Virus record (IMG/VR): IMGVR_UViG_3300042556_001858
Span: 59,596 to 123,595 of that record
DNA length: 64,000 nucleotides
Reading direction: 5' to 3' (one strand)
Source of the DNA: a virus
Below, piece after piece: positions 23,031 through 32,653 of this stretch. Position numbers and translations under genes: made by a program. The notes below the pieces were generated by a model. That model ran no database searches, was not told the DNA's origin, and saw only the letters and a program-made list of their open reading frames with translations. Every line of letters begins with the position of its first letter. Positions within the stretch are counted from its first letter, which is position 1.

Positions 23031-24074
23031 ATGATACTAACCTACCTACGCTCTAGTTCCATCGGAACTTATGCTATGTGTCCACAGAAGTACTTATTCA
23101 CATACCTTTTAGGCATGAAGGATAAGGATAATGGTAAGGCCATTATGGGCAGTACGATGCATAAAAACCTCGAACTATTAGGTAAGCAAAAGATAGCACA
23201 GCAGAATAAGAAGCGAAGCTTCGTAGACGAAGAGTTTGGCAAGATTAACTTTTCAAAGTGTTCTATCGAATATTTCAATGAGCTTTCTCACTCTTATTAT
23301 GAGAAACTCTTTCCGGGAATAATGCCCCACAATTCTAAAAAAATAACTTTAGAATGGACTCATTTAGCCATCACTAAAATGGATGGCGAGATGAATCCAC
23401 TTAACCAGAATGTGCATGCCGTAGAGGAGTTCTTTGAAGTTGAGGTTCCCCATGAGTGGGCCAATTATTCCTATAAGGTTGGCGATGAAGTGATCGAGGG
23501 GAGACTAGGGCTTAAGGGCACAGTGGACCTGATCCTAAAAGAGGACGATGTTTTCTTTCATGTAGTAGATTATAAGAGCGGTAGAAGATACAACTGGGCC
23601 ACAGACAAGGTTAAGACCTATGACTGCCTAGCGGAAGATAAACAGCTCTTACTGTATTACTATGCTTTGCGACTTAAGTATCCTGACAAACACTTCTACA
23701 TCTCGATCTACTACACGAACGACTATACAATCGACAAAGTCTTTGTCCCCGGCGGGGTCTTTACCTTCGCCTTTGACGACAAGGACTTCAAAAAAGCTGA
23801 GAATATGATTCGGGAGCAGTTTGAGACTATCAGAGATGATAAGTTCCCCCGAGTCATTAGTAAGACATGTAATAGTTTCAAATGCAAGTATCTCTGTGCA
23901 TTTTCTCAGATCATCCCAGAGATTTCCCCAGACGTGCCAGCCTGCATCTTTATGCGTAGCGAGATTGAGCGGATTGGTATAGATGCAGTCACAGAGAAGT
24001 ATGCCGACTTGAGCCGTATGAAGGTTTATAGTGGGGGCGGCAGGCAGGACGTAATTTTAGAACCTAAGGATTAA
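23031..24074 (+). CDS. Cas4/RecB-like PD-(D/E)XK nuclease with Fe-S-type cysteines
   Basis: A 347-residue protein; ATG 23031 is supported by GGGAG (23021-23025). It starts LRSSSIGTYAMCPQKYLF, with the first Cys of a Cas4-type cluster (Cys17). The nuclease core includes GLKGTVDLIL (active Asp) and VVDYKSGR at about 178-185 (Asp/Lys), and further cysteines lie in KTCNSFKCKYLC near residues 279-288. RecB/Cas4-like nucleases trim DNA ends; phage versions are thought to serve recombination. It precedes the inserted HNH gene and the DnaQ exonuclease. Confidence 0.8.
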   Translation: MILTYLRSSSIGTYAMCPQKYLFTYLLGMKDKDNGKAIMGSTMHKNLELLGKQKIAQQNKKRSFVDEEFGKINFSKCSIEYFNELSHSYYEKLFPGIMPHNSKKITLEWTHLAITKMDGEMNPLNQNVHAVEEFFEVEVPHEWANYSYKVGDEVIEGRLGLKGTVDLILKEDDVFFHVVDYKSGRRYNWATDKVKTYDCLAEDKQLLLYYYALRLKYPDKHFYISIYYTNDYTIDKVFVPGGVFTFAFDDKDFKKAENMIREQFETIRDDKFPRVISKTCNSFKCKYLCAFSQIIPEISPDVPACIFMRSEIERIGIDAVTEKYADLSRMKVYSGGGRQDVILEPKD

Positions 24075-25128
24075 ATGATGAAACTATTTTACACCACCTG
24101 ATGAAATCTCTATCGTCCATCGCTTGTTTCATTATGTTTATGCTCTTGTGGACCCACTGAACATTAGTTTCTATGTAACCTACGGAAGAATCTATTCTGT
24201 CTAATGATGCTGTAAAATTGCCAGACACGAAATCTGAATAACATGATGGCAGAGATATATCAACACCAGAAAGTTTACATTTTTCGCCTTGCTCCATATA
24301 GAGTTCAAAGAGAAAATCGCGATCTAGTTCAAAACTCAATTCCCTTACATCGGCACTTGCCTTTATCCGTCCGAATTGAGCATTAGATATTTTCGAATAT
24401 CCATCTCCCCGAACGGCCTCTGTATATTTCTCTCTTATTTTTATACCCAACTTTTTCAGCTCAGTCAAAATAGTCGTATGGCTAAATCCAAATTTCTTCC
24501 CTATCTCTTGGGCCGAAAAACCTCTTTCATACAATTCGATTGCCTCTTTAACGCATGAATCATCCCATGTTTTGGATCTAAATGTTTTTACCCCTAACTT
24601 TATAAGTTTTTTCTTTATGAACGAAGTAGAGACCTTGAAGTGTGCCGCTGTTTTAGATAACGATTTGTGAGAAGAATATATCTCAAGCAATTCGTCATCA
24701 CCTATCTTTAATAGGTGGTTATCAATAGTGATCCCCGCCTCTTTTAGCTTTGCTGTTACTGTGCAAGTAGAGCACCCAACTATCCGAGCAACTTCGGAGG
24801 TCAGTAAACCAGAACTATACAGCCCTATGATCGGCTCACTGTCTACCTCATTAGTTCTGGTCTGAATATTATTCACCCGAAGTCTATAGGCTATAGTATT
24901 CTTACAAAGGCCGACTTCCTTTGAAACTTGTATGGCTGACTTACCTTCATCGACATACTTCCTGATAATCTCTTTATCCTTTTCTCCTTTGCTAACCCAG
25001 ACATCGTTTAGTTTCAAGTGTTTCAAAATAGTAGTTCTGCTATATTTCGTCTGATCTTCTATCTCCTTTAGTGAGCAACCAGAAGAATACATATCAAGAA
25101 TTCTCTTTTTATCGACTATTTTAGGCAT
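24064..25128 (-). CDS. HNH endonuclease with five tandem helix-turn-helix units
   Basis: A 354-residue protein on the opposite strand to all its neighbours, between the Cas4-like and DnaQ genes; its end overlaps the Cas4-like gene tail by 11 bases. Five similar units of about 40 residues lie at roughly 5-43, 50-90, 97-135, 143-180 and 188-225, each of the form (I/L)xxxYxxGxSxxEIxxxxxxSxxTIxxxLxxxGI, typical for helix-turn-helix. The last 90 residues hold an HNH-type nuclease: KCKLSGVDI, TASLDRIDSSVGY, ETNVQWVHKSINIMK. It is likely a mobile homing-type enzyme inserted between two replication genes. Sequence is more AT-rich than the flanks, a sign of transfer. Confidence 0.85.
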   Translation of the reverse strand: MPKIVDKKRILDMYSSGCSLKEIEDQTKYSRTTILKHLKLNDVWVSKGEKDKEIIRKYVDEGKSAIQVSKEVGLCKNTIAYRLRVNNIQTRTNEVDSEPIIGLYSSGLLTSEVARIVGCSTCTVTAKLKEAGITIDNHLLKIGDDELLEIYSSHKSLSKTAAHFKVSTSFIKKKLIKLGVKTFRSKTWDDSCVKEAIELYERGFSAQEIGKKFGFSHTTILTELKKLGIKIREKYTEAVRGDGYSKISNAQFGRIKASADVRELSFELDRDFLFELYMEQGEKCKLSGVDISLPSCYSDFVSGNFTASLDRIDSSVGYIETNVQWVHKSINIMKQAMDDRDFIRWCKIVSSFNP

Positions 25129-25871: not shown

Positions 25872-26312
25872 ATGGATATCCTTGAAAAATATGAAGCCCT
25901 TATAGCCGATCTTGCACATTCTCTCTATAGGAAGACCCACCTCTATGATTTTAAAGACCTCTTCCAGATAGGACTCCAGTCGGCTATAAGGCTTGAAAAA
26001 AAGTTTGACCCAGTCAGGTCGCAGAGGAGCACATTCTTCACTCTATGCGTCCGAAGAGATATGGTCAAATTTGTCAAAAGACATAACAAAGCTTTCACTA
26101 ATACGATCCTACCAAGTGGCCTTGGATCAAGCGATGAGCTTCAGCTCTGGGAATCTCTGCCTGACTTATGTCCCGAGGATGCAGAGATGGTCAGGATGCT
26201 CTCCGAAGGCCACAGTAAAAGAGAAGTGGCCAAACGCTTACAGCTACCGCTCAAAGAAATAAAAAGTCGGCTAATCAAGGTTGGGGAGTTAATATGCTCA
26301 AAAGAGTGCTAG
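25872..26312 (+). CDS. RNA polymerase sigma factor (sigma70 family, phage type)
   Basis: A 146-residue protein; ATG 25872 has GGAG 5 bases upstream. Region 2 is seen in YDFKDLFQIGLQSAIRL with FDPVRSQRSTFFTLCVRRDM and a basic patch (core-polymerase and -10 contact), and region 4 in SEGHSKREVAKRLQLPLKEI (helix-turn-helix). Lengths and the absence of regions 1 and 3 are like short phage sigma factors such as T4 gp55. It probably directs host RNA polymerase to late promoters; the TATAAATA box before the tail-tube gene is a candidate target. It overlaps the glycosyltransferase gene by 19 bases. Confidence 0.8.
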   Translation: MDILEKYEALIADLAHSLYRKTHLYDFKDLFQIGLQSAIRLEKKFDPVRSQRSTFFTLCVRRDMVKFVKRHNKAFTNTILPSGLGSSDELQLWESLPDLCPEDAEMVRMLSEGHSKREVAKRLQLPLKEIKSRLIKVGELICSKEC

Positions 26313-29095
26313 TTGGGTCTGAGGCTTCTTATCTGAATACTGGGTATGCTTCTTACGGTCGTGAGCTTATCAGGCGGCTTATAGCCACCGGCAAATATGA
26401 AGTAGCCGAGATCTCCTGCTACGGATCTGCCGATGACGAAAGACGTAAAGAGATCCCTTGGAAGAATTATCCAATGGCTCCGTCTAAGACAGATTCAGAC
26501 GAGGTAAAGAAAATCTATGCGTCAAATCCAGCCAACCAATTCGGGGCATGGAGATTCGAGAGGGCCTGCCTAGATTTTAAGCCAGACTGCCTTATAATGC
26601 AGAAGGACCCTTGGATGGATTCTTGGGTGAAGCATTCGCCCTTTAGACCATTCTTCTCTTGGTCTTGGGCTAGTACGGTGGACTCAGCCCCTCAAAATCC
26701 AGAGTGGATTAATCAGTTTGCCGATGCTGACTATTTCTACACCCTATCAGAGTGGGCGGAAGGGGTCATCAAGGAGCAAGCTGGTGATTCGGTGAATCTG
26801 ATAGGCTCTGTCACGATGTGTGCCGCCGACGAGTTCAAGCCCGTCCCCAACAAGGCCGCTCACAGGCTCTCCATGGGCCTAGATCCCGATTGGAAGATTA
26901 TTGGGACGGTTATGCGAAATCAAAGACGAAAGCTCTTCCCTGACCTCCTAGAGGCCTTCGCTTTTTATCTGGCCACTACCGGAGATGAAAAGACTTATCT
27001 CTATTGTCATACGTCATACCCCGACAACGGGTGGGACCTGCCCCAATTAATGATGAAGTATGGGATTTCATCTCGGGTCCTATTTAGCTATGCCTGCGAA
27101 GAATGTGGCAAATTGTCAATCAGCAAATTTAGTGATACGATCAAGCAATGTAAAAATTGTAAGAAGTATGCAGCAAAGCTATCTAGTGTAAGTAATGGTG
27201 CTACGACCGCTGAGTTGGCTAAGATTTATAATCTGTTTGATGTGTATACTCAATACTCTAACTGTTTGACTCCGGGTCAAGAGATTTGTACGTCAACAGG
27301 ATGGAAGAATACTGAGGATATTCAGATCGGAGAGTCTGTTCTGACCCATAAAAACAGATGGAGGCCAGTAGTAAGAACGTTTAAGCACGAACATGCGGGT
27401 GATGTACTAACGTTCACTACTCATTCTGATGACGAGTCACTCACAGTTACGGGCGAGCATCCACTATATGTATTGTCTGCCAAAAATTACAAATTTGGCC
27501 AGAGTAGAAGTTTTAAAAAGAGACTGAGTGACATTATCAGGCTCGGAGGCAAGATAGAACCAACTTTTGAATTAGCTAGGGACATTAAGGCTGGCGACTT
27601 TGTCGCTTATGCCATCGATCAAGAAGAATTTGATCATACTATTGATCTACAGCCTTGGAATAATAGCCAATATGTAATCGAGGGAGATACATATCGACAC
27701 AAAAATTCTTCTGTAGCTCACAAATTGAAATATGTAGTAGACGCAGATTTGGCTAAATGGATTGGACTATATGTAGCCGATGGTTGCTCTATGACTACAG
27801 ATAGCTGCGGATCTGTGACTGTAACATGTCACGAGAAGGATAAGGCCAATATAGAATTATGCGAAAAGGTCATGGCAAGATTCGGGAATGTGTCAGTACA
27901 GCCATATCCTGAGAAACATGCTGTAGCAGTACAAATACACAACAAGGTATTTGCGACGTATTTGCTAGACCATTGTGGTAAGCACGAGTACAAAAAACTA
28001 CCAGAATGGGCAAGTAAGCTACCTTTACCTCTGCAGAAAGAGATATTGTCTGGTTTGTTTATGGGGGATGGATGTTACTATGAGAAGAGAAAGACATCAT
28101 CGTATGCTACTATTTCAATATCCCTATCCCGGCAGATTAAACATTTGTGCCGAAGATTACGTATCAACTATAATGTTAGCTCTATTCAAAAAGTTGGAAA
28201 TAGAAAGCTGCAATATCGTTTTGAGATTTCTGGAGATGTCTCTATAGGAGCCTACAAAACTACTAAGACTTCAAGCAGGGGATTCTATCATGGTGGGTAT
28301 GCCTTCTATCAGATTAAAGATGTATCTACTAAAGAATATACTGGTTTTGTCTACAATTTAGAGGTAGAAGAAGACAATTCATATACTGGTAGGATGGGTA
28401 CTATACACAACTCGGAGGGAATGGGCTTAGGCCAAATAGAAGCCGCCGCATGTGGGATTCCAGTTATGTCTACTGACTATTCCGCAATGGAATCCATCGT
28501 CCGTAAAGTTGGAGGATTCCCGATTCCGCTCAGGGCAAAAGTCCTAGAGCTTGAAACCGGATGCTATAGGGCCATTCCCGAGATTGACGATGTTGTTTCC
28601 TACTGGAAGATGTTTTTCTCTTTACCGGAGAGTGATAGGGCGGCGATATCTGAGAAGACTTTGTCTGAGTACTCTCGCAACTTCAACTGGGACGATGTTG
28701 TAGCCAAGTGGATGATCTCCTTAGACCAGTCTCCGAAGGCGACTTGGGATAAGCCACTAAGACAAATCAAGATGCCCGATGACAAGATTCCCAATTTTAC
28801 CAATAATAAGGATTTTCTTGATTGGGCCATCTCTGCTTATTTGCCCCACTCTAATCTGACTAATTCGTATGAGGCCAACTGCCTACTTAGGGACCTGAAT
28901 TTCAGATCATACAAGCCGAATCCGTGTGGCTTCTTCTATGCTGAAAGCTCCTACTTCAATAGGGTCCCGTTTGTCGATTTTGGCAAGGAGCATGTGATTA
29001 ATATGTTTAAGGCCAAGGCCGAAACATTCAATTTCTGGGAAAATGTAAGATGTGGAAAAAGAAAGCTCCAGACGGAGGATTGGCTCAATGATTAG
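26294..29095 (+). CDS. Glycosyltransferase (GT-B type) interrupted by an intein
   Basis: A 933-residue precursor. The N-extein (residues 1-323) starts with the family's N-terminal part (YLNTGYASYGRELIRRLI) and contains a four-Cys zinc-type insert (YACEECGK...KQCKNCKK). Residues 324-706 are an intein. The C-extein (227 residues) resumes with SEGMGLGQIEAAACGIPVMS, the conserved donor-binding E-x7-E region of family GT4-like enzymes. Splicing would give a 550-residue retaining glycosyltransferase. It opens an island of sugar-transfer genes. ATG 26294 has GGGGAG 6 bases upstream. Confidence 0.8.
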   Translation: MLKRVLVGSEASYLNTGYASYGRELIRRLIATGKYEVAEISCYGSADDERRKEIPWKNYPMAPSKTDSDEVKKIYASNPANQFGAWRFERACLDFKPDCLIMQKDPWMDSWVKHSPFRPFFSWSWASTVDSAPQNPEWINQFADADYFYTLSEWAEGVIKEQAGDSVNLIGSVTMCAADEFKPVPNKAAHRLSMGLDPDWKIIGTVMRNQRRKLFPDLLEAFAFYLATTGDEKTYLYCHTSYPDNGWDLPQLMMKYGISSRVLFSYACEECGKLSISKFSDTIKQCKNCKKYAAKLSSVSNGATTAELAKIYNLFDVYTQYSNCLTPGQEICTSTGWKNTEDIQIGESVLTHKNRWRPVVRTFKHEHAGDVLTFTTHSDDESLTVTGEHPLYVLSAKNYKFGQSRSFKKRLSDIIRLGGKIEPTFELARDIKAGDFVAYAIDQEEFDHTIDLQPWNNSQYVIEGDTYRHKNSSVAHKLKYVVDADLAKWIGLYVADGCSMTTDSCGSVTVTCHEKDKANIELCEKVMARFGNVSVQPYPEKHAVAVQIHNKVFATYLLDHCGKHEYKKLPEWASKLPLPLQKEILSGLFMGDGCYYEKRKTSSYATISISLSRQIKHLCRRLRINYNVSSIQKVGNRKLQYRFEISGDVSIGAYKTTKTSSRGFYHGGYAFYQIKDVSTKEYTGFVYNLEVEEDNSYTGRMGTIHNSEGMGLGQIEAAACGIPVMSTDYSAMESIVRKVGGFPIPLRAKVLELETGCYRAIPEIDDVVSYWKMFFSLPESDRAAISEKTLSEYSRNFNWDDVVAKWMISLDQSPKATWDKPLRQIKMPDDKIPNFTNNKDFLDWAISAYLPHSNLTNSYEANCLLRDLNFRSYKPNPCGFFYAESSYFNRVPFVDFGKEHVINMFKAKAETFNFWENVRCGKRKLQTEDWLND
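27263..28411 (+). mobile_element. Intein with LAGLIDADG homing endonuclease domain
   Basis: A 383-residue in-frame insertion. It begins with Cys1 (CLTPGQEICTSTGWKNTEDI, block A), has block B-like TVTGEHPLYV (Thr-x-x-His), two dodecapeptide-type motifs WIGLYVADGC and LSGLFMGDGC of the LAGLIDADG family, block F YTGFVYNLEVEED, and terminal His-Asn before Ser+1 of the C-extein. All splicing residues are present, so it should be active. The insertion lies exactly before the glycosyltransferase SEGMG motif. Confidence 0.9.
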
Positions 29096-29792
29096 TACAA
29101 CTTGTAGAGACTGCGTGTTTAAAGAAATGCATGGTAAGGTTCAGACTGGATGTAGCCTGAATATTCTAGATAGGTTCAAGGACGCCGGAGAAGAACTGTC
29201 GAGATATCAGGATGAGGATTTTACCTTCTACAAGGTGGATCGCCTCTGTATGTGGCGAAGGTCTGAACCGACTGAAGATATCGAAAATGACGTCTATATC
29301 AAATCTAACATTGTGGTAATGCATGATGAAGGTGACGATCTTGATCAAACCCTCGAAGATATCTATAATCTTGACACTCCCAAGCCCCCGAGGGTTATAG
29401 TATGTCATACGACCAAAAATCTGCTTGAGATTTATAACAAATGGTCGAAGAAATTCGGCCCACAAAGATTCTCATGTATCATGTTGGTTGAATCTCTATA
29501 TGATGGCTCTGGGTGTGATGAGGCATTCAAAAGGTCTAAGAATGGATGGCTATTCTTCATCAAATCTGGAGACAGAGTAGATAGGGACATGCTTAATGCC
29601 TTGAACTACTCCGTCAATTACAAGATGAGCAAACATCTAGCTACAACCGGAATCATTAGCTATATGGCGGTTGCATATAAGTTACTCAAAGGACAAATGG
29701 GAAATATCCACGAGACATTGCTCGAAATAAATGGTGCTACAAAAGACTGGAAGGAAATAGATGAAGATTACAGGCTACACATTTCGGGATAA
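29088..29792 (+). CDS. Cys-cluster protein with glycosyltransferase-like domain
   Basis: A 234-residue protein; ATG 29088 follows GGAGG by 9 bases. The N-terminus holds four cysteines spaced as CRDC-x13-C-x30ish-C (TTCRDCVFKEM, QTGCSL, RLCMWRR), suggesting a zinc or Fe-S site. The following part has IVVMHDEGDDLDQTL and PPRVIVCHTT, resembling the start of a GT-A family domain, then SKNGWLFFIKSGDRV. It may be a sugar transferase or accessory protein in the glycan island. Function uncertain. It overlaps the glycosyltransferase gene by 8 bases. Confidence 0.5.
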   Translation: MISTTCRDCVFKEMHGKVQTGCSLNILDRFKDAGEELSRYQDEDFTFYKVDRLCMWRRSEPTEDIENDVYIKSNIVVMHDEGDDLDQTLEDIYNLDTPKPPRVIVCHTTKNLLEIYNKWSKKFGPQRFSCIMLVESLYDGSGCDEAFKRSKNGWLFFIKSGDRVDRDMLNALNYSVNYKMSKHLATTGIISYMAVAYKLLKGQMGNIHETLLEINGATKDWKEIDEDYRLHISG

Positions 29793-30129
29793 TCCGCCAA
29801 AAACTAGTCCATTTGTTGATGAAGTAGTCACTATCAAGGACTACAGCGAGCTAAAGTCTGACTATGCTATAGACATAACCCTTGGTAGATTAACTGAGGA
29901 CCCAAGACCTTGGCTCAAAGATGGAGCTGCGTATTATGGCGACTATTTTGATCAGCACGGTACTTATTCTCTACATAGTATGTTCCCATCTATAAGGACG
30001 ACATATCCCGGAATGCTATATAAGGTATCCCTGTTGGAAGAATGCAAAACTAAAAACCCACTGGAGGAGATCTGCAAGAATAATGTCATTTCCTATATTC
30101 CTCGCCCAATTTTTGAGATTGTAGTATGA
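29761..30129 (+). CDS. Unknown protein of the sugar-transfer island
   Basis: A 122-residue protein without signal peptide or membrane segment; aromatic and Pro-rich (DPRPWLKDGAAYYGDYFDQH). The start overlaps the preceding gene by 32 bases and the end overlaps the nucleotidyltransferase by 4. No motif recognised. Context suggests a part in glycan or sugar-nucleotide handling, but that is inference. Confidence 0.45.
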   Translation: MKITGYTFRDNPPKTSPFVDEVVTIKDYSELKSDYAIDITLGRLTEDPRPWLKDGAAYYGDYFDQHGTYSLHSMFPSIRTTYPGMLYKVSLLEECKTKNPLEEICKNNVISYIPRPIFEIVV

Positions 30130-30773
30130 GCACATATATATTGCTTTCTGCTGGGGCGGGAAGGTCGATGCAGACTAGAGGGGCAAAGGCCCTATTGGAG
30201 TATAATGGCCTGACGGTTTTAGACCATCAGGTCAAAACCATACAGAAGTTCGACAAGAAAGCAGATATACTAGTTGTGACAGGAGTAGGTCATGAGAAGA
30301 TCGTCAAACACGTCGGTAAAAAGGAATATGACATCCGGGTTCTGCTTAACTATAATTACAAGCTGACTAGCCAAACCGAGAGTCTCAGACTGGCCCTAAA
30401 TGCAATAAGGCATGACGCAGTCTATATTATACACGGCGATATGATCTTTAATGAAGCGAGTCTATGTTGCTCAAGTAAGTCTTCTTTAGTTCTTTCATCC
30501 AATGATGACAAGAAGAGTGTTGGGGTTGCCTATTGTGATGGGGCAGTTATTCATCTCTCTTATGGTTTACCCGAAAAATGGGGCCAAATAGCCTATATCT
30601 GCAAAAAGGACTTCCGAGCGGCCAAAATGGTCATCAACTCATTCAGAAACAACAAGATGACATTTGAGTATATCAACATGCTCTTAAAAGAGATTAGCAT
30701 GTCTATCGTTTATGATGGTGTCAAAACAGTAGAGATAAATAAAGACTATGAAAACACTAGTGATAACATCTAG
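30126..30773 (+). CDS. Sugar-phosphate nucleotidyltransferase-like protein
   Basis: A 215-residue protein with the nucleotide-binding start of NTP transferases: ILLSAGAGRSMQTRGAKALL (consensus LAAGxGxRxxxxK, here with a Ser-Met shift), then a helix and strand DILVVTGVGHEKI, QTESLRLALNAI, and VYIIHGDMIF where Asp would bind the metal. Such enzymes make NDP-sugars or CDP-alcohols. The C-terminal half is shorter than in full GlmU or RfbA-type enzymes. It would feed activated sugar to the neighbouring glycosyltransferase. Confidence 0.65.
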   Translation: MSTYILLSAGAGRSMQTRGAKALLEYNGLTVLDHQVKTIQKFDKKADILVVTGVGHEKIVKHVGKKEYDIRVLLNYNYKLTSQTESLRLALNAIRHDAVYIIHGDMIFNEASLCCSSKSSLVLSSNDDKKSVGVAYCDGAVIHLSYGLPEKWGQIAYICKKDFRAAKMVINSFRNNKMTFEYINMLLKEISMSIVYDGVKTVEINKDYENTSDNI

Positions 30774-31437: not shown

Positions 31438-31862
31438 TTGTGGCCGATACTAACTTCTCAGAACGATCCATAATAGTGTTCGAAGAGTTGAACAAGAAGG
31501 CTAGAGGACTAGGCGAAGCCTCTCTCTTCTATGTGAACTTGAGTTCTCAAGTACTTCCAGCCGATTTCTCCATCATGAATATTACTGAGATCGCCAATGC
31601 ATATGGGTGGACTCTCGTGGCGACTTGCCCGATGTCAGCCGATATACTTAAAATGGCCACTGTAAAAGCCAAAAAAGCGTATTATATGATGGATCTGGCC
31701 TTTTTGATGAAGCCGTATGACTTCTCAAAGATGTACGAGACGCTCTCTAAGCTGAAGCTTATCGTAAGGTCTGAGCACCACCAAAGGTTCATCAAGAACC
31801 TATTTAATCTTGACTCTATTGTTTTACCGTTTGAGTTGGACAAGATATGCAATACGCCATAG
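31425..31862 (+). CDS. Unknown protein, possibly glycosyltransferase N-domain-like
   Basis: A 145-residue alpha/beta protein: MLGIIVADTNFSERSIIVFE, a strand/helix pair ASLFYVNLSSQVL, AKKAYYMMDLAFLM, and LKLIVRSEHHQRFI. The order of strands and helices looks like half of a Rossmann-type GT-B fold and may pair with the protein encoded just before it. No conserved motif confirms this. It overlaps both neighbours (13 and 16 bases). Confidence 0.4.
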   Translation: MLGIIVADTNFSERSIIVFEELNKKARGLGEASLFYVNLSSQVLPADFSIMNITEIANAYGWTLVATCPMSADILKMATVKAKKAYYMMDLAFLMKPYDFSKMYETLSKLKLIVRSEHHQRFIKNLFNLDSIVLPFELDKICNTP

Positions 31863-32653
31863 TTAATTCGGAGAAGCTTCGCTTCTCCTATCTGGATGAA
31901 AAGAAGTCTGTTCCCACCATCGCTGTTGAAATGGGCACCAATGAAACCAAGATTAGGCGAGCCCTAAAGTTCTTGGGGGTTCCAATCCGCTCTTATGCGG
32001 AGGCTCAGAGTGTAGCCATTTCTCAGGGGATCGCTAAGCACCCCACCAAGGGGAAAAAGCTCTCCAAGGAAACCATCAATAACATTTCAGCCCAAAGATC
32101 AAAAGCTTGGCTTGACTTGCCGGAAGATGAGAAGCAGAAGTTCCGCGACCTTAAAAAGGAGCAATGGAACAATATGACCGAGTCAGCTAAAGAGAATCTC
32201 AGATCCGCAGCCTACGCAGCGATCCGAGAATCAGCCGAAATTGGGTCTAAAACTGAGAGGTACGTTTCCGCCGCTCTTGAAGAAGAGGGCTATGGCGTAA
32301 TCATTCATGCCAGAAATCTCATACAAAGTCAGGCTCTTGAGGTTGACATGTTCATACCTGACCTTAAAACTGCTGTTGAGATTGACGGCCCGTCGCATTT
32401 CGAGCCGGTTTGGGGACCTGATCGGCTGAGAAAGCAGCAGTCTGCTGACACCGCTAAGCAGGGTTTGTTGATGAATAATGGGTATGCCCTGATAAGAGTA
32501 AAACAATTGGATAGGTCGATGAGTGTTAAAAGAATGAAGGATGTTTATGAGTTAATCCTGTCTGAACTTAGGAAGATTGAAGTTGAATTTCCTCCACTCG
32601 GCAAAAGGATGATCGAGTTGGAAATTAAAGATGGTGTTACTAGGAAGATTTAG
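31847..32653 (+). CDS. EDxHD-type (Vsr-fold) homing endonuclease, putative
   Basis: A 268-residue protein. The N-terminal part (residues about 1-55) is a helix-turn-helix (LDEKKSVPTIAVEMGTNETK), then a NUMOD-like basic region (KHPTKGKKLSKETINNISAQ). The C-terminal domain has ALEVDMFIPDLKTAVEIDG, then PSHFEP, with the E-D-x-H pattern of the Vsr fold used by homing endonucleases of the I-Bth0305I type, and ends in YALIRVKQLD. It sits between the glycan island and recombination genes. Mobility is inference from the family and position. Confidence 0.7.
   Translation: MQYAIVNSEKLRFSYLDEKKSVPTIAVEMGTNETKIRRALKFLGVPIRSYAEAQSVAISQGIAKHPTKGKKLSKETINNISAQRSKAWLDLPEDEKQKFRDLKKEQWNNMTESAKENLRSAAYAAIRESAEIGSKTERYVSAALEEEGYGVIIHARNLIQSQALEVDMFIPDLKTAVEIDGPSHFEPVWGPDRLRKQQSADTAKQGLLMNNGYALIRVKQLDRSMSVKRMKDVYELILSELRKIEVEFPPLGKRMIELEIKDGVTRKI

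Follow-up and report, generated by a model that had tools for sequence, protein, structure and literature searches.

A glycosyltransferase gene in this virus sequence is, with very high probability, split just before the EX7E motif of a GT4-like enzyme by a full-length, bifunctional class 1 intein that arrived recently and belongs to a horizontally mobile family; protein splicing and DNA cleavage are its predicted activities. The window, the whole stretch of 64,000 nucleotides that we analysed, is part of a 123.6-kb virus contig and encodes tape-measure, NrdA, DnaB-like and UvsX-like proteins, which points to a tailed phage. The interrupted reading frame specifies 933 amino acids with the intein and a predicted 550 after splicing. 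The features of this locus are collected in Table 1.

Table 1. Features of the interrupted glycosyltransferase gene, its intein and related insertions (window positions unless a contig is named).
Feature	Coordinates	Strand	Basis
Host gene, GT4-like GT-B glycosyltransferase precursor	26294..29095	+	Glycos_transf_1 in relatives; AF2 model
Cys-rich zinc-ribbon-like insert, CEECG...CKNCK	27095..27163	+	Weak Zn_ribbon_8 and FmdB-type matches
Divergent tract, upstream half (possible co-conversion tract)	27218..27262	+	Comparison with L001
Intein, 383 aa, class 1 type with LAGLIDADG endonuclease	27263..28411	+	Motifs, profiles, AF2 model, empty sites
Intein Cys1, step 1 nucleophile	27263..27265	+	Sequence; invariant in 16 of 16 aligned inteins
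Block B TxxH, T63-G-E-H66	27449..27460	+	H66 invariant and T63 nearly so in 16 aligned inteins
LAGLIDADG motif 1, LAKWIGLYVADG, catalytic Asp173	27746..27787	+	Alignment; PI-SceI and PI-PkoII profile matches
LAGLIDADG motif 2, KEILSGLFMGDG, catalytic Asp269	28031..28075	+	Profile and alignment; Asp269 invariant in aligned set
C-terminal splicing part, blocks F and G, end ...VYNLEVEEDNSYTGRMGTIHN	28280..28411	+	TIGR01443 above curated cut-off
Ser+1, C-extein nucleophile	28412..28414	+	Ser or Cys at +1 in empty-site sequences
Divergent tract, downstream half (possible co-conversion tract)	28412..28466	+	Comparison with L001
EX7E donor-site motif (EGMGLGQIE) of glycosyltransferase	28415..28441	+	Alignment; begins directly past the +1 residue
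Second-site inteins (DIV/C)	L129:7806-8948; L134:4423-5616		End HN before Cys; 35% identical to each other

The intein corresponds to residues 324 to 706 of the precursor, in frame and stop-free over its 383 codons. The original prediction had described an intact intein at this position, and its coordinates, Cys1, the His-Asn/Ser+1 junction and both LAGLIDADG motifs proved exact by sequence, profiles and model. Its further proposal, that the insertion lies at a donor-binding motif, agrees with the sequence, the predicted structure and the empty relatives; the motif is the EX7E of GT4 enzymes, and the insert lies one residue before its first Glu. The intein ends in ...GTIHN, followed by Ser+1 and then EGMGLGQIEAAACGIP, and the sequence downstream reads SEGMGLGQIEAAACGIP. 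The resemblance is not accidental: the endonuclease profile PF14528 (LAGLIDADG_3) matches with 37.8 bits (cut-off, 22.5) and TIGR01443 (intein_Cterm) with 16.3 (cut-off, 15.6). Judged by profiles, the Hint part has diverged: PF14890 (Intein_splicing; 26.7, E = 5.6e-6, cut-off 35.8) and TIGR01445 both score below their curated cut-offs; PF14890 run alone against the phage's own genome gave no match, a sensitivity failure of that model. Block F carries an Asn at a position usually taken by Asp, Cys or Trp. An AF2 model built from an alignment of 16 inteins reached a pLDDT of 92.1 and a pTM of 0.89, and its top Foldseek matches in the PDB were TliVMA (E = 8.8e-19) and PI-SceI (E = 4.9e-18). Cys1, TxxH, His-Asn/Ser+1, the Hint fold of the model and the precisely removable insert together place the element among class 1 inteins, and two motifs with the acidic residues D173 and D269 place its endonuclease in the LAGLIDADG family. 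Third-position G+C is 0.35 in the intein and 0.52 in the host gene. A search of the 123.6-kb record for a second intein found none.

The host gene combines a GT-B fold with the EX7E motif, which is the donor-binding motif in GT4 enzymes. The Glycos_transf_1 profile matched all 19 of the aligned empty relatives, and in a 19-sequence alignment both Glu residues of the motif, E325 and E333 in spliced numbering, are invariant. For L001, a relative without the intein, the AF2 model (pLDDT, 87.8) had as its top PDB match the chlorovirus glycosyltransferase 3oy2 (E = 3.2e-19); MshA, BshA and WaaG came next. All four are GT-B enzymes of GT4 type, and the EX7E motif of the window aligns with that of the GT4 enzyme BshA (2jjm). 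The Cys-rich insert upstream of the intein belongs to the glycosyltransferase and not to the intein. We infer that the gene is important to the phage, which the conservation of the catalytic site and the wide distribution of the family fit. Relatives of the glycosyltransferase also occur in bacterial and archaeal metagenome-assembled contigs (L104 to L110; SAR202, Verrucomicrobiales, Phycisphaerales, Lokiarchaeota and others), which may be prophages or virus contigs binned with their host.

The site before the EX7E motif is, as judged from sequence comparison, a homing hotspot on which inteins have landed recurrently. Scanning viral contigs with a junction pattern (FD.Y.QY..-Cys-Leu) returned 24 stretches, 18 of which are the same glycosyltransferase family interrupted at the same codon; the other six (L118, L119, L124, L125, L127 and L130) were rejected as chance matches. 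The 18 stretches represent 14 distinct alleles besides that of the window (13 complete, 349 to 403 amino acids), all with 24 to 37% identity to the window intein, so that at least 15 distinct alleles occupy the site when the window is included. Occupied sites are nevertheless a minority, because the empty-site pattern matches at least 120 stretches. Two host lineages (L129/L131/L133 and L134) carry a second intein approximately 220 residues upstream in spliced numbering. In one allele (L111:616-1674) the first LAGLIDADG motif is disrupted (LFAAGDGIN), and its endonuclease is possibly decaying.

The intein and extein trees are in conflict (AU test, P = 0.013 to 0.019), and the intein data reject the host clade of L120, L111, L113, L115 and L134 (AU P = 0.018); the tested clades were chosen after the trees had been viewed, and these modest values are indicative. 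Pairwise comparisons run in both directions: the inteins of L128 and L132 are 57% identical while their hosts are 37% identical, and the hosts of L120 and L113 are 58% identical while their inteins are 28% identical. That the family of the window's allele moves horizontally among divergent glycosyltransferase genes of uncultivated viruses is therefore part of what we put forward as the best joint explanation, on the strength of these sequence comparisons. Ratios of dN/dS were 0.06 to 0.17 for whole inteins and 0.05 to 0.24 by domain, with 0.12 and 0.24 for the two intein halves of L116/L117 and 0.05 for L115/L134, a pair in which dS is saturated. These ratios point to purifying selection on both intein domains, and because both halves appear constrained, the related alleles are probably functional. 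The same ratios weigh against a degenerate intein, one that has lost endonuclease or splicing activity and persists as a relic or a cleavage-only element. We regard this as very unlikely: the divergent Hint scores and the unusual Asn of block F would fit such decay, but both LAGLIDADG Asp residues, Cys1, TxxH and His-Asn-Ser are all intact, and without splicing the EX7E active site would stay disrupted.

A sublineage of these inteins departs from the usual C-terminal residues. In 6 of the 14 complete alleles (L116, L117, L121, L128, L129 and L132) the intein ends in Phe, Tyr or Pro followed by Gln, before Cys+1, and both the terminal Asn and the penultimate His are absent. The Gln-ended alleles form a single clade in the intein tree (support, 97/95), and their hosts do not form one (AU P = 0.013). 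Gln ends before Cys+1 can be compatible with splicing, since the Gln-terminal inteins of the Chilo iridescent virus ribonucleotide reductase (RNR) and of Pyrococcus abyssi Pol II are able to splice (PMC4031507).

In the mechanism that we propose, Cys1 of the window intein would form the thioester, Ser+1 would attack it, and Asn383 would cyclise with the help of His382. The two halves of the host protein would thereby be joined as ...QYSN-SEGMGLGQIE... into an active 550-residue enzyme, which would be inactive before splicing. When a relative without the intein infects the same cell, the LAGLIDADG endonuclease would cut its allele at the conserved EX7E codons, and the ensuing repair would copy the intein in together with a short flanking tract. 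Cleavage and homing by the window intein are predicted activities, of which the conflicting trees and the tract resembling co-conversion are indirect signs. The site suits inteins because the motif encoded there is essentially invariant and because a Ser or Cys is available there to act as +1 nucleophile.

The original prediction suggested a search of relatives for empty sites, and nine exact ones came to light in IMG/VR relatives (L001 to L009) in which the gene is uninterrupted and the flanking codons are adjacent. Relatives with an empty site are up to 95% identical to the window in the spliced protein. L001 is the partner of the window in the host-protein tree (path, 0.055 substitutions per site; support, 100/98), and the clade around the two is empty throughout; in the intein tree the end branch of the window intein is 1.07. 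Because the host is nested in an empty clade and the intein is highly diverged, the simplest reading of the trees is a recent gain of the intein by the window's phage lineage. Of the 203 empty-site sequences examined, 92 have Ser and 111 have Cys at +1, with no other residue seen. Some of these sequences were collected through a DNA pattern that lets through no +1 residue but Ser, Cys, Thr, Arg or Trp, which makes them a selected portion; empty loci found by protein similarity alone, without that limit, likewise had only Ser or Cys.

The intein was apparently gained recently and is patchily present in a clade whose other members are empty, which is how a selfish element would look, and there is no conserved association. 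It is therefore very unlikely to be a domesticated conditional switch, one by which glycosyltransferase action would be delayed or set off once infection has begun. An insertion at a catalytic motif would indeed hold the enzyme off until splicing, and conditional splicing has been reported for some other inteins (e.g., PMC6195587). We give just as little credence to the extension of this idea, in which a cue such as redox state, temperature or infection stage triggers splicing and the recurrent occupation of the site reflects selection for control and not homing alone. The original prediction would have fallen had the 383-residue region been a natural accessory domain of the glycosyltransferase family, an idea that the uninterrupted reading frame and the at least 15 members with an insert here might favour; it is almost certainly wrong and is rejected by the exact empty sites, as 203 family sequences lack the insert at the exact point, the insert has the Hint and LAGLIDADG fold and motifs, and its tree conflicts with that of the host.

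Divergence from L001 around the insertion involves 29 of 100 nt, and this tract lies between identical stretches of 45 nt on its upstream side and 30 nt on its downstream side. A strong synonymous excess at the site was found in only 3 of 34 close glycosyltransferase pairs (P = 6.6e-6, 1.2e-5 and 1.1e-3; the next value was 0.02), and all three are drawn from one clade, made up of the window, L024 (on the contig of L001) and L025 (on the contig of L003). A general hotspot of synonymous change at the site was rejected, as 28 close pairs of the family averaged 0.36 versus 0.32, which is not elevated. The empty alleles L024 and L025 also differ from each other in the tract, and this points to more than one exchange there. 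A search for the donor of the tract found none, and the tract differs from every known empty allele. The tract is a possible co-conversion footprint of homing; it could also stem from some other local recombination, since no donor was found and two empty relatives differ there. The tract also bears on whether an intein from another genome was misjoined into the gene during assembly: the lower third-position G+C of the intein and the empty sites of close relatives would be expected of such a chimera, but codon-exact junctions at a site where 14 further alleles sit on contigs of their own, and a flanking tract unlike every known empty allele, make it extremely improbable.

Other genes near the locus deserve mention. 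Between host genes, on the opposite strand, the gene at 24064-25128 (minus strand) encodes repeated helix-turn-helix units and a C-terminal part that is HNH-like by eye, with no nuclease domain among its best profile matches. It is absent from L001, where the interval spans approximately 100 nt versus 1.2 kb, and the interval differs in L002 and L003; for these reasons a second mobile endonuclease gene is the probable reading. The product of 31847-32653 (plus strand) may be a nuclease of MTES_1575/DUF559 type; it matches NUMOD3 weakly, and aligned DNA is present in relatives over this interval. In the interval 29052-30773 (plus strand), the GT4 gene is followed by a weak match to family 2 glycosyltransferases and by a MobA-like nucleotidyltransferase, and the two together suggest a small glycan-synthesis cluster.

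The kind of element is known, and its host protein and site appear to be new. The original prediction held that inteins in glycosyltransferases are rare, which stands for the literature searched and fails for this gene family, with its at least 14 other alleles and a second site in two lineages. No report of an intein in a glycosyltransferase was found in the titles, abstracts and passages searched in openly accessible literature, and the text of a survey of mycobacteriophage inteins has no word beginning with "glycos". Among 50,697 GenBank phages the glycosyltransferase family and the intein alleles are essentially absent: only distant glycosyltransferases turned up, in S-CBS4 and TJE1, the intein matches in cultured phages were only to distant inteins in other host genes, and none of the 40 intein-match records listed had a host annotated as a glycosyltransferase. 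The best-ranked intein matches were in Eggerthella phage LE2-3 (MW679026.1), one in a gene annotated as a tRNA synthetase and one in a gene annotated as a portal protein. The locus adds a carbohydrate enzyme to the intein-bearing proteins and shows that its EX7E motif has been targeted repeatedly. At this one site (GT-a), many empty alleles can be set beside at least 15 distinct occupied ones, a state with two inteins and a mobile sublineage with Gln ends, so that it lends itself to the study of homing, of co-conversion and of how catalytic residues are lost. Protein engineering also gains new inteins from these alleles, the His-less Gln-ending ones among them. Automated annotation would probably mislabel the gene, as the splicing-domain scores fall below the cut-off.

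Phage inteins are known in genes for ribonucleotide reductase, terminase, DNA polymerase, helicase and methylase (e.g., PMC5050341 and PMC3653736). Like the intein described here, they are of class 1 type, bear endonucleases, sit in conserved motifs and are patchily distributed; their hosts, however, mostly act on nucleic acids or nucleotides, whereas the host here is a glycosyltransferase. That host shares the GT-B fold and the EX7E motif with the GT4 enzymes BshA, MshA, WaaG and chlorovirus B736L (3oy2), but is only approximately 15% identical to them and has an extra Cys-rich insert and C-terminal helices. The Gln terminus of six alleles recalls the Chilo iridescent virus RNR and P. abyssi Pol II inteins, with the difference that here the replacement of Asn by Gln is combined with that of His by Phe, Tyr or Pro in one clade spread across divergent hosts; the window's own allele, in contrast, keeps the standard His-Asn/Ser end. 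In architecture the window intein resembles PI-SceI (yeast VMA), TliVMA and PhoVMA, in which a two-motif LAGLIDADG endonuclease likewise splits the Hint domain, but it is only 14 to 17% identical to them, and it interrupts a glycosyltransferase where they interrupt a V-ATPase subunit.
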